This document shows, one piece after another, positions 49,510-62,456 of a stretch of 64,000 nucleotides of DNA. The notes under the pieces are model-generated. The model had not been told where the DNA came from and did not search any database. It worked only from the letters and a program-made list of their open reading frames with translations. The translations under genes and the position numbers were made by a program. The stretch is from Bacteroidales bacterium. GTDB lineage: Bacteria > Bacteroidota > Bacteroidia > Bacteroidales > UBA932. Numbering within the stretch: the stretch's first letter is position 1; every line of letters starts with the position of its first letter. The DNA lies in the NCBI GenBank assembly GCA_017631435.1, contig JAGBTG010000034.1, positions 80,700-144,699 on the forward strand. The letters run 5' to 3'.

Positions 49510-50652
49510 ATGGAAAAGAAATATTCCACTCCCCTTGTATTTATGGCAGCCTGCGCAGGGATGTCATTCTTTGGAATCACAATGCTCTCACTGGGCCCTA
49601 TTCTTGGTCCGCTCAACGCTCTTGTAGAGGGAGCCAATGCACTTCCGTCAACCATGTCAATTGGAATCATTATAGGGACAATACTGTTTGGCCCTGTTGT
49701 GGACAAGTTCGGATACAAATGGCTCCTCATTCTGGCTTCTGCGTGTGCATTGGGAGGTGTGCAGGGATTGGCCAGCTTCAATGAAATAAGGATGCTGCAC
49801 TGCTCAATATTCCTTTTGGGTTTAGGTGGAGGAATCCTCAATGGCCTTACCAATGCCCTTGTTTCAGACATTTATGATGATAACAAGCGAGGTGGCAGGC
49901 TTGGTCTTCTGGGGGCGTTCTACTGTATAGGTGCCCTGCTATGGACCCTTCTGAATTACTTCATTCCTGATTTCAGGATTCCGTTGAATGCAGTATCAAT
50001 CATAATGGCAATACTGATTGCATCATTCATATTCATTGCATTCCCTAAAGCAAAGCCTCAGGAGAATGTATCATTGAAGAAATCTCTTGGACTGCTCAAA
50101 TACCCTGCACTCATACTGTTTGCAGTTGTACTTTTCTTCCAGTGCGCATTTGAGGGTACCAGCGGAAACTTTACAGTACAGTACCTCAACCATATTGGTG
50201 GCATGGACAACGCAACTGCAACCTTGGCCATGACTTGGTTTACAATTGGAATGCTTTGCGGAAGATTGCCGTTGGGTGGCATTATGAATAAGCTTAAAGA
50301 ACTTGGAACACTTTACCTGTACCTTGGTGTAGCCCTGGCGGGTGTAATCCTGTTCTTCATTGAGGCATCAAGCACAGTTGCAGTGTACACAGCAATGGCA
50401 CTTATAGGATTTGGAGCGGGCGCCACTTTCCCTGTAGTGCTGAACTTTATAGGAAGTGCATTCAGGGAATTGAGCGGAACCGCATTTTCTATAGCAATGT
50501 TCATTGGATTGTGCGGCCAGTCTTTTGGAAACAAGTTTATGGGAATGCAGTTTGACAATGCCGGATACATGTCACTTCCTGTAACCTTGATTGTATGCGT
50601 AGTGGTGATGGTTATACTCGTACCGCTGGCAGTAAAAGTATCAAAGAAATAA
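49510..50652 (+). CDS. MFS transporter (sugar or amino-sugar type)
   Basis: 380 residues with about 12 membrane segments (start VFMAACAGMSFFGITMLSLGPILGPL; the motif DKFGYKWLLI after helix 2 is the MFS loop). It is 11 bases downstream of the ROK kinase and 34 bases upstream of the SIS-domain gene. It likely moves the released sugar across the inner membrane. The subfamily is less clear than for the FucP-like gene at 1490. Confidence 0.8.
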   Translation: MEKKYSTPLVFMAACAGMSFFGITMLSLGPILGPLNALVEGANALPSTMSIGIIIGTILFGPVVDKFGYKWLLILASACALGGVQGLASFNEIRMLHCSIFLLGLGGGILNGLTNALVSDIYDDNKRGGRLGLLGAFYCIGALLWTLLNYFIPDFRIPLNAVSIIMAILIASFIFIAFPKAKPQENVSLKKSLGLLKYPALILFAVVLFFQCAFEGTSGNFTVQYLNHIGGMDNATATLAMTWFTIGMLCGRLPLGGIMNKLKELGTLYLYLGVALAGVILFFIEASSTVAVYTAMALIGFGAGATFPVVLNFIGSAFRELSGTAFSIAMFIGLCGQSFGNKFMGMQFDNAGYMSLPVTLIVCVVVMVILVPLAVKVSKK

Positions 50653-51533: not shown

Positions 51534-53312
51534 CTACATAACCCTCCAGGCCGGATGGAGTTCATTGTTCTGATGGGACCTCTTGCGTACAATCTGGTAG
51601 AAGAAATTGAGTATCGCCTGCGGATTCCCTGCAAACTCCGCATCGGTACGGAGCTTCTCCTCAAACTGCGCCTTAAGCTGCGGATCTTTAGCCAGCATTT
51701 CGCGCCCTTTTACCTCCATATACTGCGGACGGATCCAGAACTCGTTTCCGGCCTGCACACAAACATTGAAGAATCCCCAATAAGTAAGGGAACCCGGTGC
51801 GGCAGGCTCCAGCATCCACATTGCCAAACGGGCTGCCGGCTGGTCCATATCAATATATATGCTTCCCTGCGGATACTCAAGTGTCTCGGTCTGCACAGTG
51901 AAATCTGGGGTTACAGGGATTCGTCCTTCACTCTGTCGGGAAGAGAATTTTCCCCCTATGTAACGGTAGGTCTCCACCTCCACTGCGGCAGGCTCCTCAA
52001 GTACAGTGTATTTCACACCATGAAGGCCAAGCAGTTCAATCACATTCTTCCACTGCGGCATAAGAATGTATGCCTTTGGAATTTTTACAGAAGAAGTTGC
52101 CTTGAATGAAGTGTATACAGGGATATTCAGGGTTATAGGATCTGTATAGTCATGGGTTACCCACTCCCCTCCGCTGAGGTCACTTTTGGTGGTATCACGC
52201 CCCCAACTCAAGTAATCTTTCATTATAACAGTTTCATCTGTGCTGCGGTAGTTGAACCCGAACGGCTCCTCTCTGGAGGCCGCAGAAGATGTATATGCAT
52301 CTGCAGCGGCAATAACCTCCTGCAGTTGTTCCTTGTTCTGCGCCAGAATTTTTGCACTGGCAAGAATGGCCTCAATTGTAGCCTCCACACGCTGTCTGTA
52401 TGGCTTGTAGATATGGTTCTCTATCAGCAGGCCCAATCTGTTGTGTGCTGCGGCATACCCCTGCGAATAACGGGGATCAAAGGTGTCCGGAACAAAACCG
52501 GTCTCGGGAGCATTGTACTTCTTGAAGCTGCCGTACCAGAAAATTGGGAAACCGGCCTCCTCCATCATGCTGCAAAGCTGTTTTTCATACACTTCTTGGC
52601 TCCAGCGGGTAATTCCAGGCTCCATATTGCCGGTCATGTTGTCAATGGCATAAGTCATCACATACTGGAAATCTGCACCGTTGGTAACATGCACATCAAT
52701 GAACAGCTCCGGCAGCCATCTGTTGTACATCTTCAGCCAAGCCCTCATCTCGGGGGCATCCGCCTTAAGGAAATCCCTGTTGAGGTTCAGCTGCTGCGAG
52801 GTGTTCCTTGTACCCAGCTCATCCGGGCCGTTCTGGTTGATACGGTTGAGTGCTGTAAAGTTCTCATGACCGTCTACATTGAACACCGGCACAAAGACAA
52901 AGCTCACATCATCAAGCAGCCCAATATCCTTTTTCCCCACAATCATATCCCTTACAAATATCATTGAAGCATCTTTTCCATCCGGCTCTCCCGCATGGAT
53001 ACACGACTCCACCAGTATGATCACCCTCCCCTTCCTGCGGATATCCTCCGGAGCGGTAAGGCCATCCTTGTCTACAATTACCAGTGAAAGGTCCCTCCCC
53101 AGCGGCGAGGTTCCAAACGAAGCAATGTTCACCATTGGCGAATACCTCTCCAGCCTCTGGAAAAACTCCATTGTCTGGCCGAATTTTGGTGTCTTTACAA
53201 AATCTGTCTCCTCTGCATAAGTGACAAAATCAGCCACTGTTGCCTTCTGGGCGCAAGAAACGCACAATGAAGCGGCAAGAACTGCTGTTGCAAGTAAGGT
53301 TTTGGCTCTCAT
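51534..53312 (-). CDS. M14-family zinc carboxypeptidase, exported
   Basis: 592 residues from ATG 53312; the longer frame covers the promoter. Signal ending ASLCVSC (lipoprotein-like). Zinc ligands HAGEPDGKD (HxxE, near residue 105) and a later His in DVHVTNGADF, in the M14 carboxypeptidase layout (FVPVFNVDGHE, LNLNRDFLKADAPEM). It removes residues from peptide C-termini outside the cytosol. A -7-like TATCTTCG (53333-53340) and a small hairpin separate it from the RiPP operon upstream, so it is probably expressed separately, although read-through is possible. Confidence 0.9.
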   Translation of the reverse strand: MRAKTLLATAVLAASLCVSCAQKATVADFVTYAEETDFVKTPKFGQTMEFFQRLERYSPMVNIASFGTSPLGRDLSLVIVDKDGLTAPEDIRRKGRVIILVESCIHAGEPDGKDASMIFVRDMIVGKKDIGLLDDVSFVFVPVFNVDGHENFTALNRINQNGPDELGTRNTSQQLNLNRDFLKADAPEMRAWLKMYNRWLPELFIDVHVTNGADFQYVMTYAIDNMTGNMEPGITRWSQEVYEKQLCSMMEEAGFPIFWYGSFKKYNAPETGFVPDTFDPRYSQGYAAAHNRLGLLIENHIYKPYRQRVEATIEAILASAKILAQNKEQLQEVIAAADAYTSSAASREEPFGFNYRSTDETVIMKDYLSWGRDTTKSDLSGGEWVTHDYTDPITLNIPVYTSFKATSSVKIPKAYILMPQWKNVIELLGLHGVKYTVLEEPAAVEVETYRYIGGKFSSRQSEGRIPVTPDFTVQTETLEYPQGSIYIDMDQPAARLAMWMLEPAAPGSLTYWGFFNVCVQAGNEFWIRPQYMEVKGREMLAKDPQLKAQFEEKLRTDAEFAGNPQAILNFFYQIVRKRSHQNNELHPAWRVM

Positions 53313-53364
53313 ATATATCAAGTTGGTTTGTGCGAAGATAACCATTACCATCTCCAGAGATGCC

Positions 53365-53712
53365 CTAGGATTTCCACATATACAAACGCTCATCTCCACA
53401 TCTTTTGCATCTGGCTATTACACCATTTTCTACATGACGGATAATTTGCATATCTTCGTATTGGCACTTATGGCATTCAATCACAGCCTTTCTCCCATTA
53501 ATGATGACTTTTGTTTTATCCTTAATCATAAATCCATATATCATGCACAGTACAAGAAAAACCACCAATGCAACCCAAAAGCCTTCACTAATCCATGCAA
53601 TGACAGATGTGACAATAACAAGCAATCCAAGGACAGTATCTACCCACTCATATTTTGTACGGAGTAACTTTAAAGCAAAAAAAACAATCAGAGAAACAAT
53701 AATAAGACCCAT
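53365..53712 (-). CDS. Small membrane protein with zinc-ribbon end
   Basis: 115 residues. Two or three membrane helices (IIVSLIVFFALKLL; VLGLLVIVTSVIAWISEGFWVALVVFLVLCMIYGFMI, ~25-62) then a cytosolic domain with CHKC (~83-86) and CKRC (~106-109), spaced like a metal-binding ribbon. I know no family name. It is the last gene of the radical SAM cluster, 4 bases after the formyltransferase, so it may be a membrane component of that pathway. Confidence 0.65.
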   Translation of the reverse strand: MGLIIVSLIVFFALKLLRTKYEWVDTVLGLLVIVTSVIAWISEGFWVALVVFLVLCMIYGFMIKDKTKVIINGRKAVIECHKCQYEDMQIIRHVENGVIARCKRCGDERLYMWKS

Positions 53713-53716
53713 AGCA

Positions 53717-54214
53717 TTATAGTTTTAGTTTTTGATAATATTCATTGAAGAATCTGTCCAACAACCTTGCTGCAATAACATCTGCATTGTTTCTGGCAGT
53801 ATCTACATTATCGTCGGGAGTAATGGGATATGATTGCTGATATAATATTTCACCCCCATCTACCTCATTGGCAATTCTATGTAAAGTAACACCATTCTCC
53901 ACCTCTTTATTCCTGAAAATCCCCACCCACGGGTCCAGGCCACGATATTTTGGCAACAGAGAAGGATGTATATTGTAAGCCCCATATTTTGGAATACCGA
54001 ACAATGATTGTGGCAAAACATAAGGGCAACGCCAAGTTATCATCAATTCAGCCTCACCACTTTTGATTGCCTCTTCCAACTCCATCAGAAAGACATGTTT
54101 TTCCACATCTGCAAAGTCATTTACATCCATAACCTGCAAATGGAGGCACTTGTTGTCCTCCAGATACTTTCTGACATTATTCTCACCTGTGGTAACCAAA
54201 AGGACTTTAATCAT
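53717..54214 (-). CDS. Small formyltransferase-fold enzyme
   Basis: 165 residues. The formyltransferase motif AYNIHPSLLPKYRGLDP (Asn and His of the Asn-His-Asp triad, about residues 80-96) and the Asp in HRIANEVDGGEIL (~125) are intact. It is much shorter than methionyl-tRNA formyltransferase (~310) and closer to PurN or sugar-formyltransferase size, without a C-terminal domain. It should transfer a formyl group from formyltetrahydrofolate to an amine. It overlaps the B12-type radical SAM gene by 8 bases, so the substrate may be the cluster's peptide product or an intermediate. Confidence 0.8.
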   Translation of the reverse strand: MIKVLLVTTGENNVRKYLEDNKCLHLQVMDVNDFADVEKHVFLMELEEAIKSGEAELMITWRCPYVLPQSLFGIPKYGAYNIHPSLLPKYRGLDPWVGIFRNKEVENGVTLHRIANEVDGGEILYQQSYPITPDDNVDTARNNADVIAARLLDRFFNEYYQKLKL

Positions 54215-55535
54215 TGTACTTCTTTATGTTAAACTGAATCCCACTGTATTTTGAAACATCACTGGCAACCGATGCAAATTCTTCATCGGTCATCTGTGTA
54301 GACAAATTGATTACAGGACAACCATCTTTCAAGAACTGGACCGGATCAGGGATTCTGCCATTCTTTCGCGCATGATTATACAGGGCTGATCCCGGGAATG
54401 CAATTATAAGTCCTAGATCTATAGCCGAATATTTTCTATGCTCTTTCCACCATTCCAATGTAGTTGTGGCAGAACCGACAGTTTCAACCTCATCACCCAG
54501 AATGATTGTAGATCTTGTATCAAGCCCTGCCGATATGGTCATATTTAGGGCGCTCTCTACCTGTTCAATGGTAATTTTTTTGCGCATGCTTTCAAGAATC
54601 CTGTTATCAGCGCTCTCTATTCCCAAGAAAACATAACGGCAATTACTGTTTTTCAAAGCTTTTACAATTGTTTCGTTTACACTGTCAACCCTCAACTGAA
54701 TGGACCAGATAATAGGATAATTTTTTGCCCTCTGGCAGAACTCAAGCACCCTCTCCTGATCTGAAGCAAAAAGTTCCTCCCTCAAAGCAATATAATTTAC
54801 ATTGTAGTTTGCAAGAAGATATTCTATTTCCGAGAATATGGAATCCAATGAACGCTGTCTATATCTGCTTCCCGACGGATGGAAGCAGAAGGTACAGTTA
54901 TATTTGCATGAACGGCCTCCAATAATTGCCACCGGAGAATATTTTATACCATTTTCAACCTCCCCATTGGAAGCAAGATATTTGTCATAATCAAAACCGG
55001 CATAATCTGGCAATGGCAGCTCATCAAGATTCATTATATCAGGTCTTTTCTCCGTGATAACCCACTGTCCGTCTTCTTTATATATAAGCCCTTTTATCTG
55101 GGAGTACGGCTTGCCGTTTCCTATTGCATCAACAAGTTCAGGCACAGTAATCTCTCCCTCTCCAATAACACCCACATCTGCATATTTGCCAAATCCTTCC
55201 ATAGCTACGGCAGGGTCTGCTGTAACCATTCCTCCACCGGCAATGGTTACAATGGACGGATCAATTTCCTTTACAGTTTTGAAAAGTGGATATATTTCTA
55301 TGAACTGGCCAGATATTCCTCCAGATCCTACTATATCAATATTCCAATCCTCAAGTACTCTCGACAAGACAGTCCTGTCATCCTCAACACAATGATTCAA
55401 GTTAAGGGTGTATACATTGCACACACCGGAGGCTTTCAGTGCAGATGACACATACAATATCCCCATAGGCATTATATAGCCACAAATTGGAGTGGAGAAG
55501 TATCTTGGGATAACTAAAAGTATATTGGGTTTCAT
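54207..55535 (-). CDS. Cobalamin-binding-type radical SAM enzyme
   Basis: 442 residues from ATG 55535. The N-terminal domain (MKPNILLVIPRYFSTPI..., VGSGGISGQFIEIYPLFKTVKEIDPSIVTIAGGGM) has the Rossmann layout of B12-binding radical SAM proteins, although the cobalamin His motif DxHxxG is not evident. The radical SAM motif is GRSCKYNCTFCFHP (CxxxCxxC, about residues 210-220), followed by SIQLRVDSVNETIVKALKNSNCRYVFLGIESAD. Members methylate unreactive carbons or rearrange substrates. It lies in the operon between the five SPASM enzymes and the formyltransferase. Confidence 0.88.
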   Translation of the reverse strand: MKPNILLVIPRYFSTPICGYIMPMGILYVSSALKASGVCNVYTLNLNHCVEDDRTVLSRVLEDWNIDIVGSGGISGQFIEIYPLFKTVKEIDPSIVTIAGGGMVTADPAVAMEGFGKYADVGVIGEGEITVPELVDAIGNGKPYSQIKGLIYKEDGQWVITEKRPDIMNLDELPLPDYAGFDYDKYLASNGEVENGIKYSPVAIIGGRSCKYNCTFCFHPSGSRYRQRSLDSIFSEIEYLLANYNVNYIALREELFASDQERVLEFCQRAKNYPIIWSIQLRVDSVNETIVKALKNSNCRYVFLGIESADNRILESMRKKITIEQVESALNMTISAGLDTRSTIILGDEVETVGSATTTLEWWKEHRKYSAIDLGLIIAFPGSALYNHARKNGRIPDPVQFLKDGCPVINLSTQMTDEEFASVASDVSKYSGIQFNIKKYND

Positions 55536-55549
55536 AATTGTTGTACTTA

Positions 55550-56845
55550 TTAAAATTGTTCCGACAGGCATATTGGCATATTCATGTCGTATTGTTTCAT
55601 CAGTTTTTCAACTTTATATTTTACCAGATCCTCCACAAAGGATTCTGTAAAATTACACACTTCATTCCTATATTCTTCTTCATAAGAATTGAACTGATGG
55701 AAGCAGCCACCTCCGCAATTCCACTTCACCTTACATGTTGCACATTTTTCTTTTGAGTGTACATTATGGCTTAGAAGAGTGTCAAATTTATCTCTATCAA
55801 ATTTTACCCCATTCTCATCTATTATACCGTAGCAAGTATGCTTGAAAAGAGGTTCCTGTTGTGTTGCCACACAATAACATCCGGTTATAAACCCTTCGGC
55901 AGTAATACAATATTCTCCGGGGCATGCCCTGTCTATCGGGAAGATGGTCCTTAAATATGCAAATGATATTATGTCTATATCATTGCTGTCCCCTATCTTT
56001 CGAGCGGCAATGAACCCTTTCCTGTACTCGTCATAAAAGGCATTCATACTTTCAGCCGATTCAAAAAGTTCCTGGGCAGTAACAGGTTCAAACATTGCGC
56101 TCCTAACCTCCGGAAAATCTGCAATGAGTATATCCATCATCTCTGTCATTCTCATCACATTGGATGGCGTAATAGTTGAATTTATCTGCACCGGTATTCC
56201 TGAGTCTATCAGTTTTCTTATGTTTTCCTTAACCAATGGGTAATGTTTTCTTTGGGCATTCTGTACCTCTTCCAGAATTTCAAAAGAAACACTTACCTCT
56301 ACCCTTTTCTCTTTTAGAAAACATACTATATCCTCATTGAGGACAGAACCATTTGTAATAATTCTTATATTGAGGCGCTTACCTCCGGCCAACGCCTTTT
56401 TTTCTGCATATTCAATACTCTCCTTTACAAGCCCCCACGACAGCATCGGCTCTCCTCCCCCCATATATGAAATGGTAAGGGGCCTGTTGAAATCTGCAGG
56501 CTTTGAATCAAAGAAAAAATCAATTCCACCAGTAAGCCTCTCAATATCCAATACAGCCTGATTGCGACCGGCAGCTGAATAACAATACGAACAATTGAAA
56601 TTGCACACATTGTTTGGCAAAACGGTAAGCAGCGTATAATCCTCGGGGTTCCTTACCTTACGCTGTTTGCCAACAGGCACATAATCCGCCAACGGACCAA
56701 ACACTTCGTTATACTTTCCACATGACAGGAACTCATCTATATGTTCCCTGGCAGCAACAGCATATTTTCTTGCAACAGGTGAATATAAAATCAACTGCCC
56801 GTCAAGTTCATATGTAAATATGTCATTCTTTTCAAACCAGTTCAT
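55550..56845 (-). CDS. Radical SAM/SPASM peptide-modifying enzyme 5
   Basis: 431 residues. An N-terminal ~85-residue domain (YELDGQLILYSPVARKYAVAA...) precedes the radical SAM motif CNFNCSYCYSAAGRN (~95). Then ISYMGGGEPMLSWGL, VSFEILEEVQNAQRKHYPLV and INSTITPSNVMRMTEMMDIL. The C-terminal SPASM part has ligands in ACPGEYC, GCYC and CATCKVKWNCGGGCFH. It is one of five related enzymes in a row and overlaps enzyme 4 by 14 bases. Likely it makes a thioether or similar crosslink in the Cys-rich peptide. Confidence 0.9.
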   Translation of the reverse strand: MNWFEKNDIFTYELDGQLILYSPVARKYAVAAREHIDEFLSCGKYNEVFGPLADYVPVGKQRKVRNPEDYTLLTVLPNNVCNFNCSYCYSAAGRNQAVLDIERLTGGIDFFFDSKPADFNRPLTISYMGGGEPMLSWGLVKESIEYAEKKALAGGKRLNIRIITNGSVLNEDIVCFLKEKRVEVSVSFEILEEVQNAQRKHYPLVKENIRKLIDSGIPVQINSTITPSNVMRMTEMMDILIADFPEVRSAMFEPVTAQELFESAESMNAFYDEYRKGFIAARKIGDSNDIDIISFAYLRTIFPIDRACPGEYCITAEGFITGCYCVATQQEPLFKHTCYGIIDENGVKFDRDKFDTLLSHNVHSKEKCATCKVKWNCGGGCFHQFNSYEEEYRNEVCNFTESFVEDLVKYKVEKLMKQYDMNMPICLSEQF

Positions 56846-57917
56846 CTTTGTTGGAATTTAATGCTTCAGCTGTGATTTTTCGGATAAATCTGCAATGCTC
56901 ACGGAAGTATTCATGGCTATAAGCCTTTCGGGCCAAAAGGCATCCTCCACCGCAATTCCATCGGGCAGAACATTCTGTACACTCCTTATTGTAAACCGTA
57001 GCTTCATTCATGATTTCTCTGTATCTCTCATCATCAATCAATAATTTACCCCCTTTAACCTCTCCGTAAACAAACGAATCATAATGGTCCTCCAATGGAG
57101 AAGATATACGGGAGCAGGATGTCAATTTTCCCTCAGGTGTCACTACAAACTTGCCCAAACACGATCTTTCCTGTCTGATGAAAGCATTCATGTACTCAGT
57201 ATTTCCTACTTCAATGCCCAATTGGGCTCCCCTTTCCCTTGCCTGAAAGAAACTCTCCACAAATGCATTGTAAAAAGCCCTCAGTTCCGATACATCCTTA
57301 AACATCCTGTCATTAATGACAGCCTCAAATGCAACACATGAAGCTGCCGGAAATTTGGAATGCAACTCTTCCACCATCTCTTTCTGCCGGGAAACATTCA
57401 AGGGAGTTATTGTACTCCTTATCCCTATTGACATTCCTGAATTGAGAAGTTTGTCTATTGTCCCTGCCACCACATCATAATGGGAACGCTGGGCATTGTG
57501 TACATCTTTCAGAATATCAAAAGATACAACAAGTCCAATATCATTTTCCTTTAGATATCCAATTATATCATCTTTAAGAAGAGACCCGTTTGTAACCACC
57601 CCAACATCCAATCTGACATCATTTTTTGAAGCAAGCAGTTTTGCATAATCAACAGCCCCCTTAAATTTATCAAATGACAACAAAGGATCTCCACCACCAG
57701 AAAACACTATCTGAAGATACTCTCCCCTCTCCCTTACAACATAAAAATCCAGCACGGCCTTTATCGTTTCCAATGACATCTCCTCTTTGGAACGTCCCTT
57801 GGATGAATAACAGTATGCACACGAAAAGTTACATATCTGATTCAACAGTAGGGTAAGTACACGAATATCGTGGGGTGTTCTTATTTTCCTTATATTTCCA
57901 TCCATAACAGGAGCCAT
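56832..57917 (-). CDS. Radical SAM/SPASM peptide-modifying enzyme 4, short form
   Basis: 361 residues. It starts only ~35 residues before the motif CNFSCAYCYSSKGRS, so it lacks most of the ~85-residue N-terminal domain of its four paralogues. FSGGGDPLLSFDKF (Asp in place of Glu in the usual GGEP), VSFDILKDVHNAQRSHYDVV, IRSTITPLNVSRQKEMVEEL, and a full SPASM end CTECSARWNCGGGCLLA. The start codon shares one base with the stop of enzyme 3 (TAATG). It may borrow a peptide-binding domain from another family member. Confidence 0.88.
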   Translation of the reverse strand: MAPVMDGNIRKIRTPHDIRVLTLLLNQICNFSCAYCYSSKGRSKEEMSLETIKAVLDFYVVRERGEYLQIVFSGGGDPLLSFDKFKGAVDYAKLLASKNDVRLDVGVVTNGSLLKDDIIGYLKENDIGLVVSFDILKDVHNAQRSHYDVVAGTIDKLLNSGMSIGIRSTITPLNVSRQKEMVEELHSKFPAASCVAFEAVINDRMFKDVSELRAFYNAFVESFFQARERGAQLGIEVGNTEYMNAFIRQERSCLGKFVVTPEGKLTSCSRISSPLEDHYDSFVYGEVKGGKLLIDDERYREIMNEATVYNKECTECSARWNCGGGCLLARKAYSHEYFREHCRFIRKITAEALNSNKDELV

Positions 57918-59257
57918 TAATAGTTAGCAATATACTCATCCAACGATTCGCCGGCATCCTTATACTGCTCATCAAGCCTTTCAAAAAGCAAGGTCTTGCT
58001 GAATCTCCTTGTAAAATCACATATTACATCAAGAATTTCCTGCTTATATTGGCTGTTTTGCATCATACATCCCCCTCCGCAATTCCATTTAATGAAGCAA
58101 TCCGCACATTTGGGGTTTGTGTATATGGTATCCCTCCGTATCAACGAGTGGAATTTATCATTGTCTACATTGAATTTACCCGATTCATCTACACAAGCAT
58201 ATATGAAGTCATTATAATTCTTTTCATTTGGAGATGATATCTGATGGCATACCGTAATGGTACCTTCAGGTGTAAGGCAAAACTCTCCGGTACAATAGCG
58301 TTCCACAACCATATTCAAATTACGGAGCGGAGCACATGCCACATCAATACCATACAACGCACCCAATTTTCTTGCCTCAAGGAACGAGTCATAATAGAGA
58401 TTATAGAATTGCCTTGTACTCCCAACCTCATTGAACACCTCATTTGACGTAATAGGATCAAACAAGGCCTGTTTTACATGCGGGAAACGATTATGCAGCT
58501 CCTCCACCATTCTTGGCATCAGTGAAACATTGTCCGGCGTTATCATCGAACGTACAATCGGAAGGGTAGTACAATTCTTGAGCAGATCAAGTCCTCGGCA
58601 AACATTTTCATATTGTCCCCGCTGCAGATTCTGGATTTCCGGCAATATTTCAAACGATACCCTGGCCATAACATTATAGCGGCTGAATACCTCAACCATC
58701 TCCTCTGTAATCCTTGAACCATTGGTAACTATTGTAGTCATCATCCTTATCCCGTGCTCCTTAGACAACATATCAGCATACTCCAGTCCAAATTTTACCA
58801 CATCCCACGACATTGTAGGCTCACCACCTCCAAGATACGAAATGGCCAACCGGTCTGTCTTTACCCTGTTTGAATCTATAAAGTAATCCAATGCAGCTTT
58901 CAAATGCTCTTTTTTCAGTGCCTTATTTGAACGCCCCTTTGCAGAGAAGCAATATGAACATGAAAAGTTACAGATATAATTTGGCAACACATACATCAAC
59001 AGGAACTCATCCACGTTGTTCACCTTACTGTCCCTTTCCTCAGCAGGAACACCATCCATCAACGCTTCAACCACCTCTTTATATTCTTCCCGACAGTGGG
59101 GCCACACTGACACGGCATTTTCAATCCCGGCACATTCCTCTTCAGATGCAATCATCATATTGCCTGCCACAGGTGCATATATGAGTCTCAAATCGGGCCT
59201 GTTGTAGTGTTCTTCCAATGGAAGGACATATATGTTATTCTTCAATAAAACGTTCAT
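57917..59257 (-). CDS. Radical SAM/SPASM peptide-modifying enzyme 3
   Basis: 446 residues from ATG 59257 (the longer frame would start with TTG). N-terminal domain YNRPDLRLIYAPVAGNMMIASEEE, radical SAM motif CNFSCSYCFSAKGRS (~105), ISYLGGGEPTMSWDVV, VSFEILPEIQNLQRGQYENV, VRSMITPDNVSLMPRMVEEL, then SPASM with RYCTGEFC, TVCHQ and CADCFIKWNCGGGCMMQ. It overlaps enzyme 2 by 23 bases. Confidence 0.9.
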   Translation of the reverse strand: MNVLLKNNIYVLPLEEHYNRPDLRLIYAPVAGNMMIASEEECAGIENAVSVWPHCREEYKEVVEALMDGVPAEERDSKVNNVDEFLLMYVLPNYICNFSCSYCFSAKGRSNKALKKEHLKAALDYFIDSNRVKTDRLAISYLGGGEPTMSWDVVKFGLEYADMLSKEHGIRMMTTIVTNGSRITEEMVEVFSRYNVMARVSFEILPEIQNLQRGQYENVCRGLDLLKNCTTLPIVRSMITPDNVSLMPRMVEELHNRFPHVKQALFDPITSNEVFNEVGSTRQFYNLYYDSFLEARKLGALYGIDVACAPLRNLNMVVERYCTGEFCLTPEGTITVCHQISSPNEKNYNDFIYACVDESGKFNVDNDKFHSLIRRDTIYTNPKCADCFIKWNCGGGCMMQNSQYKQEILDVICDFTRRFSKTLLFERLDEQYKDAGESLDEYIANY

Positions 59258-60584
59258 AATCTCCAATAATTTCTTTTATGCTTACTCCATTTTCCTCTTG
59301 CCATATATCATCAAGCCTTCTTGCCAATATATACTTGAGAAAACGCCTTACAAATCTGCAGTATTGCGGAATTTGCTCTCCCCCATTATTCTTCGTATTG
59401 TTGATACATCCACCCCCGCAATTCCATTTTGCAAAACATCCGTCACACCATGGTTGGGAATGGACATTTTCCTTGAGCAGTGATGAAAGTTTGTCTTTAT
59501 CTATTGACACACCATGTTCATCCACCTTGCCATAAATATAACTGCTGTAATTCTTTTCCTCAGGAGACGATACACATGGGCAGATAGATATGGAACCATC
59601 CGCACACAAGGCAAGTTCACCGGCGCAATATCTGTCCACTGTAACATCAACATTCCTGAGAGCGGAACAAGTAAGTACAATACCCTGTTGCTCTGCAAAA
59701 CGCTTGGCCTTAAGGAAAGACGTCGTAAACTTCAGGTAAAAAGAATCCTTGTCGGCAATATCATCTCCAATTACAGGTTCAAATGCCACATGTCTGATCT
59801 GAGGAAAATTCTGGGCCAATACAGAAATCATCTCTTGTTGACGCTCTACATTAAGTTCTGTAATGACAGAATTTATAGCAGGCACCACACCATTTTCAAT
59901 GAGTGTTGCAATATTTTTACTCACAAGATCATAATGCCGTCTCTGGCTGTCCTGAACATCCCTGAGGATCTCATATGAACATACAAGATCAATATCATAT
60001 GTCCTGCAAATCTCAATAAAACCGTCGGGAATAATGGACCCGTTGGTTATCAGTGTGGTGACAACTTTGCGCTGGAAATTATTCCTGGTATATATATATT
60101 GGACAGCAGGTTTTACAATATCGTCCCATGAAAGCAATGGTTCTCCTCCGCCAAATATGGTAACCGTGAGAAAATCAGAATCATTTCTCTTTTTATCCAT
60201 AAAATAGTCAATCATCTGTATTGCCTGCCCCAATTTCAGACGTTGCTTTGAACGTCCTTTGGCGGAATAACAGTAACTGCAACTGAAATTGCAGACATTA
60301 TTTGGAAGTATGGAGAGATTAATGAAATCTTCAACACCCCTTACATGCCCTTCCCGCATGCTCACCGGCTCAACATCACATAATGCGGCAACTGTTTCCA
60401 AGGTATCCGTGTCTGCACTTTCAGGTGAGACAACAGCATCAGCCAGCTTGCATACATCCTCTTCTGAAACAGGTAAAATTGAATCTGCTAGAGGGGCATA
60501 AAGCAAGTATGTACCATCCACTTCCGTCTCAAGCAAATATAACTCCCTCTTCTGCAGTATTTCTCTAAAATTATTCGTTGACAT
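59235..60584 (-). CDS. Radical SAM/SPASM peptide-modifying enzyme 2
   Basis: 449 residues. N-terminal domain VDGTYLLYAPLADSILPVSEED, radical SAM motif CNFSCSYCYSAKGRS (~105), VTIFGGGEPLLSWDDI, CSYEILRDVQDSQRRHYDLV, INSVITELNVERQQEMISVL, then SPASM with RYCAGELALC and CDGCFAKWNCGGGCINN. It overlaps enzyme 1 by 14 bases. The N-terminal domain resembles that of enzymes 1, 3 and 5 and may serve peptide recognition, but I cannot show that it is a classic RRE. Confidence 0.9.
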   Translation of the reverse strand: MSTNNFREILQKRELYLLETEVDGTYLLYAPLADSILPVSEEDVCKLADAVVSPESADTDTLETVAALCDVEPVSMREGHVRGVEDFINLSILPNNVCNFSCSYCYSAKGRSKQRLKLGQAIQMIDYFMDKKRNDSDFLTVTIFGGGEPLLSWDDIVKPAVQYIYTRNNFQRKVVTTLITNGSIIPDGFIEICRTYDIDLVCSYEILRDVQDSQRRHYDLVSKNIATLIENGVVPAINSVITELNVERQQEMISVLAQNFPQIRHVAFEPVIGDDIADKDSFYLKFTTSFLKAKRFAEQQGIVLTCSALRNVDVTVDRYCAGELALCADGSISICPCVSSPEEKNYSSYIYGKVDEHGVSIDKDKLSSLLKENVHSQPWCDGCFAKWNCGGGCINNTKNNGGEQIPQYCRFVRRFLKYILARRLDDIWQEENGVSIKEIIGDYERFIEE

Positions 60585-61899
60585 ACTCTTCCAATGTTAA
60601 TCCTGTTTCTTCATATACGGTATTCCTCAACTCTTCAATCAAAAGATGATGCACAAACCTTCTGTTGAAATCGCATACTTTAGCCATAAACTCGCTAGGA
60701 TATGTATCATTCCTTGCCATGCATTCCCCGCCACAACTCCACTTGGCAAAACAATCTGTACATCTTTCATATGAGAACACATTAATGTCTCTGATCTGCT
60801 TGAATTTTTCAAAATCCAACTCCACTTTTCCCGACGATGAAACATTTCCATAGACACAACGCGCATATCTCTTTTCCTTTGGTGAAGAGGTCAGGTGACA
60901 GGCCGAAATTGTTCCTTGAGGTGTCAGAGTGAATTTTCCCGGACAATGCCTGATGGTAATTCCACGCAACGAATCGTCAAAAGTAAACCTCAAATTTATC
61001 CCTTTCTTCCTTGCAATATCCTTGCATTTGAGATATCCGTCATAAAATGAATTATAGAACCCCTCCATATCTTCAGGTGTACTGAACATTTCATATCCAG
61101 TAACAGGCTCCATAGTATATTGGGCTATAAAAGAATATTTGTCAGCTATTTCCCCAATCATTTCAACCATCCTGGAAACGCTTGCCGGAGTAATTGTGGA
61201 ATTGAGCATAGTTCTGATTCCTGCCCGTCTGAGCAATTCAATATTTGAACACACCTGAGCATAATGGTTTCTCTGACAATTCTGCAGATCTTCCAGAACT
61301 TCAAACGATACACATACAGCGCAGTCCAATGCTTTAAGCGAATCAACTATACTCCCGGTCAATAACGACCCGTTCGTCACTATTGACATGTAAAGTGGAA
61401 ATCCTTTTTCTGCAGCCCTGGCCCTGGCAAATTTCAATGCCTGCTCCAACACGTCCCATGAGAGCAATGGCTCTCCTCCTCCAGAAACAAATATGGACAA
61501 TGGCTGCGGTTCAAGCCTGTTTTCATCAATAAAGTACTCCAGAACAGACTTTACTGTATCAAAATCCAGCTTCTGCCTGCTCCTGCCATTGGCCGAATAA
61601 CAATAGGAACATGTAAAATTACATGTAAGATTAGGAAGTATGGAAAGTTTTGTTGTTTTCTCCAAAGGTACAAGATCAGCCACAGAAGGCAATCTGCGGG
61701 GAACCATTTCCCTATACAGTTCTACCGCCTCATTGGGTTGAACCTTATCGGGATTATCAACATATGCAAGAATTGATTCTGCATCAGATTTGGAAACAAG
61801 GGCAACACCCTCTTCTAACGGAGAATACAACACATAAACCTGATCGTTCTCCTTTAACCCCAATTCATTGCCAGAGGGTATCAAGAATATATCTGACAT
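60571..61899 (-). CDS. Radical SAM/SPASM peptide-modifying enzyme 1
   Basis: 442 residues. N-terminal domain NDQVYVLYSPLEEGVALVSKSD, radical SAM motif CNFTCSYCYSANGRS (~95), IFVSGGGEPLLSWDVL, VSFEVLEDLQNCQRNHYAQV, LNSTITPASVSRMVEMIGEI, then SPASM with RHCPGKF, ACHLT and CTDCFAKWSCGGECMAR. It is the first enzyme after the peptide gene, 67 bases from the peptide stop, behind a strong hairpin, with AAAGGAG before its start codon. Confidence 0.92.
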   Translation of the reverse strand: MSDIFLIPSGNELGLKENDQVYVLYSPLEEGVALVSKSDAESILAYVDNPDKVQPNEAVELYREMVPRRLPSVADLVPLEKTTKLSILPNLTCNFTCSYCYSANGRSRQKLDFDTVKSVLEYFIDENRLEPQPLSIFVSGGGEPLLSWDVLEQALKFARARAAEKGFPLYMSIVTNGSLLTGSIVDSLKALDCAVCVSFEVLEDLQNCQRNHYAQVCSNIELLRRAGIRTMLNSTITPASVSRMVEMIGEIADKYSFIAQYTMEPVTGYEMFSTPEDMEGFYNSFYDGYLKCKDIARKKGINLRFTFDDSLRGITIRHCPGKFTLTPQGTISACHLTSSPKEKRYARCVYGNVSSSGKVELDFEKFKQIRDINVFSYERCTDCFAKWSCGGECMARNDTYPSEFMAKVCDFNRRFVHHLLIEELRNTVYEETGLTLEEYVNE

Positions 61900-61927
61900 A
61901 TCACTTTTCTCCTTTAATTAAATAGAA

Positions 61928-61953
61928 GAAGGCCGCCATGCGTGGCGGCCTTC
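61928..61953 (-). terminator. Strong hairpin between peptide gene and first enzyme
   Basis: GAAGGCCGCC and GGCGGCCTTC pair perfectly over 10 bp around a 6-base loop, followed on the minus strand by a T-rich tail (TTCTATTTAATT). It could end most transcripts after the peptide gene and let a minority reach the enzymes, giving more peptide than enzyme, as seen in many RiPP operons. Confidence 0.8.
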
Positions 61954-61966
61954 CTCTCGCCCACAA

Positions 61967-62053
61967 TTAGTGGTTGCAACGGCAACCGCCACCAAAGCAA
62001 TCACAACATCCTGCTGCTTTAGTCTGAGCTTTTTTAACCTTAACGATTTTCAT
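61967..62053 (-). CDS. Cys-rich RiPP precursor peptide (28 residues)
   Basis: The frame ATG (62053) to TAA (61967) encodes 28 residues. The N-terminal ~14 form a short basic leader (KIVKVKKAQ, then TKAA), and the C-terminal half reads GCCDCFGGGCRCNH, with five Cys (C16, C17, C19, C24, C26) and a GGG turn. It is too short for standard gene finders. Its own promoter lies at 62146-62175, an A-rich region precedes the ATG, and five radical SAM/SPASM genes follow, the classic order for a RiPP operon. Product class is inferred: the Cys would be targets for thioether or other C-S/C-C links. No signal peptide. I know of no matching named precursor. Confidence 0.85.
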   Translation of the reverse strand: MKIVKVKKAQTKAAGCCDCFGGGCRCNH

Positions 62054-62145
62054 AATCTTAAGAATTAAATTATTCCCTACTCTATTGTGGCTTTTCGGGG
62101 TGCGCCATTAGATTTCATCCCTCAAATATTACAAATGGGTATTTG

Positions 62146-62175
62146 CAAATATAAAAAAAACATCTCACTTATCAA
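62146..62175 (-). promoter_or_regulatory. Promoter of the RiPP operon
   Basis: On the minus strand TTG (62173-62175), 19 bases, then TATATTTG (62146-62153) is a full Bacteroides-type promoter. Transcription would start near 62139, giving an ~85-base leader before the peptide gene. Confidence 0.65.
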
Positions 62176-62198
62176 CCTCTTCTACAAATAAATCATCT

Positions 62199-62456
62199 TT
62201 ATCTTTTCTCCCTGATTTTTATGAACTTGGCATTTGCATACCCAATACCATTCCCAAACTTCACCCTCGCAAAACCATCCTTTATTTCATAAACATACAC
62301 TGTCCCCCCTCTATTTACCCGTCCCAAAACATCTGCTTTAGTATTAGGCGACACCCTGATATTTATAAATTCATTTGCAATACATACATACTCGGTAGTT
62401 CCAGCCAAACTTTCCCGGAATTGTTGCCTTTTTGAAGCCTCATGTCTATCATACAA
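62199..62456 (-). CDS. SH3b-domain protein fragment
   Basis: 85 residues with a clear bacterial SH3 domain: FINIRVSPNTKADVLGRVNRGGTVYVYEIKDGFARVKFGNGIGYANAKFI. There is no signal peptide, although such domains normally bind cell-wall peptides outside the cytosol, and the only start is a TTG (62454-62456) preceded by a frame open back to a stop ~20 bases earlier. It is probably the end of a decayed longer gene. It lies just upstream of the RiPP promoter on the same strand, without a clear terminator. Confidence 0.5.
   Translation of the reverse strand: MYDRHEASKRQQFRESLAGTTEYVCIANEFINIRVSPNTKADVLGRVNRGGTVYVYEIKDGFARVKFGNGIGYANAKFIKIREKR

Follow-up and report, generated by a model that had tools for sequence, protein, structure and literature searches.

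The 64,000-nucleotide stretch of a Bacteroidales contig (JAGBTG010000034.1) that was analysed here, referred to below as the window, carries on its minus strand, from position 62053 down to 53365, an operon that by its anatomy is a system for a ribosomally synthesized and post-translationally modified peptide (RiPP) and that probably works like a ranthipeptide system. It consists of a gene for a cysteine-rich peptide of 28 residues, five genes for radical S-adenosylmethionine (SAM)/SPASM enzymes (E1 to E5) and genes for a B12-binding radical SAM enzyme, a formyltransferase and a membrane protein with CxxC motifs. We are highly confident that this is a RiPP biosynthetic operon; as a whole explanation, an undescribed RiPP family with SPASM crosslinks, a B12-radical step and formyl capping is, on balance, favoured. 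From E1 to the CxxC protein gene the eight genes are spaced by -14, -32, -1, -14, -22, -8 and +4 bases, and a wider gap, of 67 bases, occurs only after the peptide gene. The initial annotation of this DNA had described all of these components at this place, on the minus strand and mostly overlapping, which is confirmed; the upper bound it gave (62180) lies beyond the end of the peptide gene, but takes in an RNA element at 62074-62108. The G+C content of the operon is 40.7% versus 46.4% in the remainder of the window.

Beyond the window, 14 distinct related loci were identified, and three types were distinguished: six type A loci with 5-6 SPASM genes (the window, L017, L022, L024, L148, which is on the same contig as L023, and L194), seven type B loci with two SPASM genes, countable in six of them as L028 is cut (L018, L025, L027, L028, L029, L030 and L031), and two type C loci with 5-6 SPASM genes and without the B12 or formyl enzyme (L146 and L147). 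Five SPASM enzymes for one peptide, which the initial annotation had found unusually many, are therefore a recurrent arrangement (five or six in eight loci), but not a universal one (two in six type B loci).

The precursor peptide of the window, MKIVKVKKAQTKAAGCCDCFGGGCRCNH (28 residues, 61967..62053, minus strand), has relatives in all 13 loci with a complete 5' end of the operon, the window included; none of these loci carries the enzymes without the peptide and in none is the peptide frame disrupted, both being observations that the initial annotation had named as counting against its RiPP-like reading. Eleven of the 13 were obtained without use of the peptide, namely the window and the loci found through E3 or the B12 enzyme; in these the peptide is therefore an independent finding. 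The two type C loci were found with a peptide profile, but both of their genomes also turn up when the order sample is searched with E3. The peptide profile, run on 12 genomes, missed only those of L025 and L028, the contigs of which start within the operon. In L146 the peptide gene sits between SPASM genes 2 and 3 of six.

The core region of the window's peptide is CCDCFGGGCRC-NH (61970..62008, minus strand). Across the six type A loci none of the 11 residues of CCDCFGGGCRC changes, while all 11 codons vary silently. In type B (core CCD[AV]FGYGC[TKS]C[TA]C, five loci) silent variation alone is seen at 8 of 13 core codons and a residue change at 3, and in type C (core CCDHCGGC[KQ]C, two loci) the corresponding numbers are 4 silent and 1 residue-changing out of 10 codons. 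As far as can be judged from the sequences, this pattern shows that the peptide core is under selection, and the silent-only variation of type A, together with the presence of the peptide in 13 of 13 loci, lends good support to the RiPP-like reading. Each of the three core types contains five core cysteines. The C-terminal residue of the type A peptides is His, His and Asn in the five-enzyme loci and Asp in the six-enzyme loci (L017, L024 and L148); a C-x3-D motif is absent from the window's core and present in one copy, C-RC(N/K)-D, in the three six-enzyme loci.

All five SPASM enzymes are encoded on the minus strand and score over the Pfam Radical_SAM cut-off (29.5 bits), E2 barely: E1 (60571..61899) with 56.7 bits, E2 (59235..60584) with 30.4, E3 (57917..59266) with 47.7, E4 (56832..57917) with 55.9 and E5 (55550..56845) with 53.4. 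The open reading frame (ORF) of E3 opens at a TTG (59266), and an in-frame ATG 9 bases on is an equally likely start. The enzymes are 33.5-37.8% identical to one another, and each has the CxxxCxxC motif and seven SPASM cysteines; all three radical SAM and all seven SPASM cysteines are invariant across 36 aligned enzymes. E4 of the window is without the N-terminal region present in E1-E3 and E5. In a maximum-likelihood tree of 54 rows, which takes five type A loci (the window, L022, L148, L024 and L017, with L194 left out), each enzyme position forms its own clade, with support of 100/99 for E1, E2 and E3, 100/96 for E4 and 100/100 for E5. Type A loci with six enzymes have an additional one that falls with E3; E4 and the second type B enzyme cluster together at 99/95, and five enzyme positions pair between both type C loci. 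The tree contains a number of long branches, and the order of its deep nodes is uncertain. It shows position-specific orthology, and E1 to E5 are old, separate lineages.

Among NCBIfam models, that of the ranthipeptide maturase PapB is the best match for each of E1-E5 (90-129 bits), and it scores 112.8 with a type B enzyme and 115.5 with a type C enzyme. The closest solved structure by profile is 5wgg (E 4.3e-40; for E3 alone, the best PDB match at E 1.5e-17), which we take to be CteB. The Mycofactocin maturase model reaches at most 44.6 bits among the matches listed (cut-off 265). Matches to defence models were rejected: PADLOC pVip (39.4-51.5 bits, E1 and E3), a kinase-fusion match (20.8 bits) and the candidate model PDC-M51A (47.2 bits, B12 enzyme) are read as reflecting the shared radical SAM fold and not an anti-viral viperin or other defence role.

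The crosslinks are reasonably likely to be of the thioether type. PapB is described as making Cys-Asp/Glu thioethers and as accepting Cys-Xn-Asp with n = 0-6 (PMC9413430), and the C-x3-D of the six-enzyme type A peptides is PapB-like in this respect; for ranthipeptides, Asp, Glu, Asn and Thr are among the acceptors described (PMC11002830), and seven SPASM cysteines are given for CteB and QhpD (PMC10352776). Like PapB (freyrasin) and CteB (thermocellin), the operon places radical SAM enzymes with a seven-cysteine SPASM domain next to a cysteine-rich precursor; unlike them, it has five or six separate lineages per short core, plus B12-radical and formyl enzymes.

The B12-binding radical SAM enzyme (54207..55571, minus strand) scores over the cut-off for both Radical_SAM (62.2 bits) and B12-binding (45.5 bits), and its best NCBIfam model is HpnJ (145.8 bits versus a cut-off of 577.6). 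It is encoded in all 13 type A and type B loci and in neither type C locus, a joint presence that partly reflects the search itself, as this enzyme was the query that led to most of the loci. The formyltransferase-domain protein (53717..54214, minus strand; Formyl_trans_N 78.4 bits) has the same distribution (13 of 13 type A and B loci, neither type C stretch), and N-x-H-x-S-x-L-P and a later D are kept in all 13 copies, the N-x-H and D presumably being the catalytic residues.

A formylation domain formylates the start of the peptide in linear gramicidin synthetase. This synthetase is among the relatives of our formyltransferase by sequence match, although the gramicidin system is non-ribosomal, and formylation of the peptide's N-terminus is a tentative assignment. 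Should the peptide be the acceptor, formylation would be expected at its N-terminus, since four of the five type B precursors contain no Lys. The formyltransferase might instead formylate an amine made by the B12-radical enzyme, or hydrolyse formyl-tetrahydrofolate; the fusion of the B12 enzyme and the formyltransferase into one protein in L018 fits a shared substrate, and the structural relatives include sugar, tRNA, nucleotide and deformylase enzymes, but the presence of the gramicidin synthetase among the same relatives speaks for capping, and we regard these other roles as rather unlikely.

Two RNA elements lie at the operon start. The 5' leader of the peptide gene contains the DUF805b RNA motif (Rfam RF02914; 62074..62108, minus strand; 39.0 bits, gathering score 35.6), which occurs once in the window's genome and just upstream of the peptide in 10 of the 11 type A and B loci with upstream DNA, the exception being L024 with a trace of 16.5 bits; in both type C stretches it is below the gathering score. 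A search of viral contigs with a DUF805b pattern gave no match, and one such locus, with a slightly different motif, was found later. The motif is over the cut-off in 93 of 198 order genomes. Downstream of it, a script found an ATG-started ORF in 26 of 30 loci (L159-L188), and in 25 of these 26 a distance of 21-28 bases separates the motif from the ORF start; for the most part the genes are unrelated. A dedicated regulator of the peptide family was therefore rejected, and the motif, whose name seems too narrow because it precedes mostly unrelated Bacteroidales genes, is read as a common leader element that supports the peptide start and not a special function. Short peptides with GG-type leaders are also found behind it (L174, L181 and L184). 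Farther upstream, GTTG-N19-TATATTTG (62146-62176, minus strand) fits by eye, with one mismatch, the Bacteroidetes promoter pattern TTTG / TAnnTTTG.

Between the peptide gene and E1 lies a terminator- or attenuator-like stem-loop with a T-rich 3' side (61924..61957, minus strand; -28.9 kcal/mol), and none of 200 dinucleotide shuffles folds as low. A stem-loop, differing in sequence, is present in this gap in 13 of 13 loci, where 0-7 of 200 shuffles fold as stably (z -2.3 to -5.7; the folded stretches were cut by hand to the gap plus its edge).

The chemical steps, their order, the excess of peptide and the function of the product we infer by analogy. The peptide, with a leader of about 15 residues, would be made in excess of the enzymes, having its own leader RNA and a stem-loop that probably cuts read-through. 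The leader would be recognised first and the SPASM enzymes would then act in turn, each of the five probably introducing a single ranthipeptide-like, Cys-based crosslink in the five-cysteine core, with Asp3 and the polar C-terminal residue as likely acceptors. The B12-radical enzyme would make a further change, probably a methylation. The leader would be removed by M42 aminopeptidases where these are encoded, and by another peptidase in the window's genome, after which the formyltransferase would probably cap the new N-terminus.

Several observations weigh against this scheme. E1-E5 score below the PapB cut-off (NF047865, 340 bits), and no listed NCBIfam cut-off is reached by any enzyme, for which reason homology does not settle the bond type and the operon is not assigned to the PapB family. 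A profile of the N-terminal region (17 enzymes) matched no known RiPP recognition element in PDB sequences. The C-terminal Asp seems to track the enzyme number, but this is suggestive only, the link being drawn from six loci that form two groups. The partly constructed joint presence of the B12 enzyme belongs here as well, as does the lack of an M42 peptidase in the window's genome, which is 88% complete. Type B has two SPASM enzymes for a five-cysteine core, so that 'one enzyme per cysteine' cannot be general, and three of five type B peptides have 1-2 further cysteines ahead of the core. The two enzymes of type B, and the last enzyme of L017, which is without one cluster cysteine, would agree with a scheme in which one or two SPASM enzymes modify the peptide and the remaining ones bind the leader as scaffolds or have other substrates. 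This is improbable in our view, as 55 of 56 SPASM enzymes from 14 loci (all but the last of L017) retain both CxxxCxxC and CxxCx5Cx3C and every position persists as a separate clade.

The initial annotation had found no leader peptidase, exporter or immunity gene in the cluster. As to the first, the window's own genome agrees, but an M42 aminopeptidase gene accompanies 8 of the 13 type A and B loci (L018, where one gene separates it from the operon, L022, L025, L027, L028, L029, L031 and L194); no such gene was found in the window, L024, L030, L148, either type C locus or L017, where the contig stops 530 bases past the formyltransferase. As to the second, no exporter was seen inside the operons (judged from ORF lists and Pfam scans of chosen neighbours, not of every ORF). 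An HlyD-type gene does lie some 3.5 kb away from L146, a type C cluster, and in L022 the formyltransferase gene is followed at about 1.1 kb by a polysaccharide-flippase-type gene. The last gene of the window's operon encodes a small accessory membrane protein of 115 residues (53365..53712, minus strand), in which two CxxC pairs and a hydrophobic N-terminal half are read directly from the sequence; it has no Pfam family over the cut-off, and a homologue (38.9% identical) was found in L194 only, upstream of the peptide, among the loci searched. A membrane RCK/potassium-channel-like gene is present in four of six type A loci (L022, L194, L148 and L024, the last truncated or frameshifted); only the L023/L148 copy is over the Pfam cut-off and the others are similar to that copy.

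The operon family is rare. An E3 protein search of 299 family genomes gave five with a match, of which G502 and G456 have clusters besides the window's own; in 393 order genomes four match (the window, G027, G303 and a single gene in G183), and in 296 phylum genomes only the own genome does. Among the best 80 of 165 loci from a B12-enzyme scan of GTDB 220 species genomes, eleven at at least 50% identity belong to the family, two of them being the G502 and G456 contigs. The peptide profile, built from nine loci, matched in 36 of the 393 order genomes at E <=0.1; 24 new loci were examined, and two, in G027 and G303, are the type C clusters, the other 22 being rejected, with no adjoining SPASM homologue (L144 has one 25-bit match). 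A scan of IMG/VR added one further type A cluster, L194, on two contigs identical over the 4.7 kb compared. Ten of 11 named records have names of a type that we take to be Bacteroidales; L029 is titled Lachnospiraceae, which may be a binning error.

The L194 contig has a tyrosine integrase on one side of the cluster; the opposite side carries a transposase fragment together with UmuD/UmuC-like genes and a gene for a terminase large subunit, and beyond the integrase on the second contig with this stretch there is a terminase small subunit match (25 bits). With such a phage-type neighbourhood, a role in lysogenic conversion or antagonism is conceivable. Spread by plasmids was rejected, as 72,556 plasmid records gave only two matches, at 29-30% identity. 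In an empty-site comparison within the genus, the neighbouring M14 gene is present in 3 of 13 genomes (own included) and the upstream part is different.

Two opposed functions have to be weighed against these data. The product might be a fixed metal-binding or redox peptide cofactor, or a metallophore, kept inside the cell, the enzymes shaping the five-cysteine core into a metal site, much as the initial annotation had supposed. The type A core is unchanged in six loci in spite of enzymes that are 39-73% identical to the window's, most bacteriocins seem unlike such a fixed core, all three core types have five cysteines, and no exporter was seen inside the operons. However, the loci showed no recurring partner gene for metal handling or redox chemistry, and the rarity (E3-like genes in 4 of 393 order and 1 of 296 phylum genomes), patchy occurrence and lower G+C content make the system unlike a core cofactor, which leaves this a doubtful proposition. 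Alternatively, the product might be exported by unlinked machinery and act on other cells, as an antimicrobial or a signal, with the operon moved by phages or other elements. The phage-type flanks of L194 and the patchy occurrence agree with this, and the RCK/ion-channel-like gene of four type A loci could be a linked function, but the operons showed neither an exporter nor an immunity gene, an arms race is hard to reconcile with the invariant core, and 50,697 phage records contain no E3 match; this, too, seems rather improbable. A speculative combination, to which we give little credence, is a stepwise assembly line in which five or six SPASM enzymes, one position each, together with B12-radical alkylation and N-formyl capping would yield a knot-like metal-binding cofactor peptide and not a weapon, in a set that could travel with Bacteroidales temperate phages.

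The favoured reading, an undescribed RiPP family, can be set beside other known systems. PQQ and mycofactocin are cofactors that arise from a small peptide and a SPASM enzyme. The operon resembles their pathways in having both; it differs in that no PqqD/MftB-like match was found by Pfam scan among the ten window proteins and similarity at the level of MftC is not reached. In methanobactins and bufferins, peptide cysteines are modified to bind copper (PMC12452194), but this is done by MNIO enzymes, none of which was found among the same ten proteins. The sactipeptides ruminococcin C and thuricin CD likewise have more than one radical SAM enzyme per cluster (PMC8188230 and PMC12093266); those have two enzymes, unlike the up to six in conserved positions here. 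With respect to PapB, the window enzymes differ in scoring far below the cut-off of its model. No description of at least five SPASM enzymes per precursor, or of this peptide family, was recognised among the matches listed in searches of open-licence PMC literature. An atlas of radical SAM RiPPs by Clark and Seyedsayamdost (2022) reportedly exists and may contain this family. What appears to be new is that five or six SPASM lineages, each specific to its position, are conserved as a set for one short invariant core, with a coupled B12-radical and formyl step.

Other genes surround the operon and its distant relatives. Upstream of the window's peptide lies an ORF with an SH3_3 domain (62199-62456, minus strand; 85 residues from a TTG), which resembles an SH3 protein upstream of the L194 operon (33% over 61 residues) and is perhaps a remnant of an island common to both. 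The CxxC gene is followed by an M14 zinc carboxypeptidase gene (51534-53399, minus strand; likely ATG about 55 bases on), the same-genus homologues of which have a different and longer N-terminal part, and past it, adjoining a sugar-isomerase-like ORF, there is by eye a major facilitator superfamily transporter-like ORF (49510-50652, plus strand), which is not thought to be an operon member. In the Tannerella-titled contig a CD225-family membrane protein gene (L148:14345-15088) stands directly upstream of the operon.

Single SPASM homologues in G448, G183, G456 (contig 86) and G468 were rejected as members, being 24-31% identical and having no CCDxFG-type peptide nearby; that of G183 also adjoins an M42 gene, and a 22-residue ORF with CCD antisense to an M42 gene (L151, G183) was judged to be due to chance. 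Relatives of the B12 enzyme at no more than 45% identity (34 loci, L032-L065) were likewise set aside, with E1-E5 matches of at most 60 bits and no peptide found by a narrow plus-strand pattern. Three of the distant B12-radical enzymes (about 600 residues; L043, L044 and L065, on contigs titled Acetobacterium, Desulfarculales and Prevotellaceae) adjoin genes for proteins of 333-362 residues weakly similar to SPASM enzymes and possibly represent another multi-radical-enzyme pathway. In L020 and L021, single SPASM genes adjoin genes for proteins of 382-503 residues with a RRGFFGAGLTAAA-like segment, two copies per contig.

If each paralogue makes its own change on the 11-residue core, the operon would be a natural test bed for the residue-wise division of work among sister radical enzymes, which cannot be learned from one iterative enzyme such as PapB. 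The three locus types offer ready comparisons for this purpose (five versus six enzymes, Asp versus His/Asn at the C-terminus, with versus without the B12 and formyl steps), and the extreme conservation of the core suggests that the product has a defined function in Bacteroidales.

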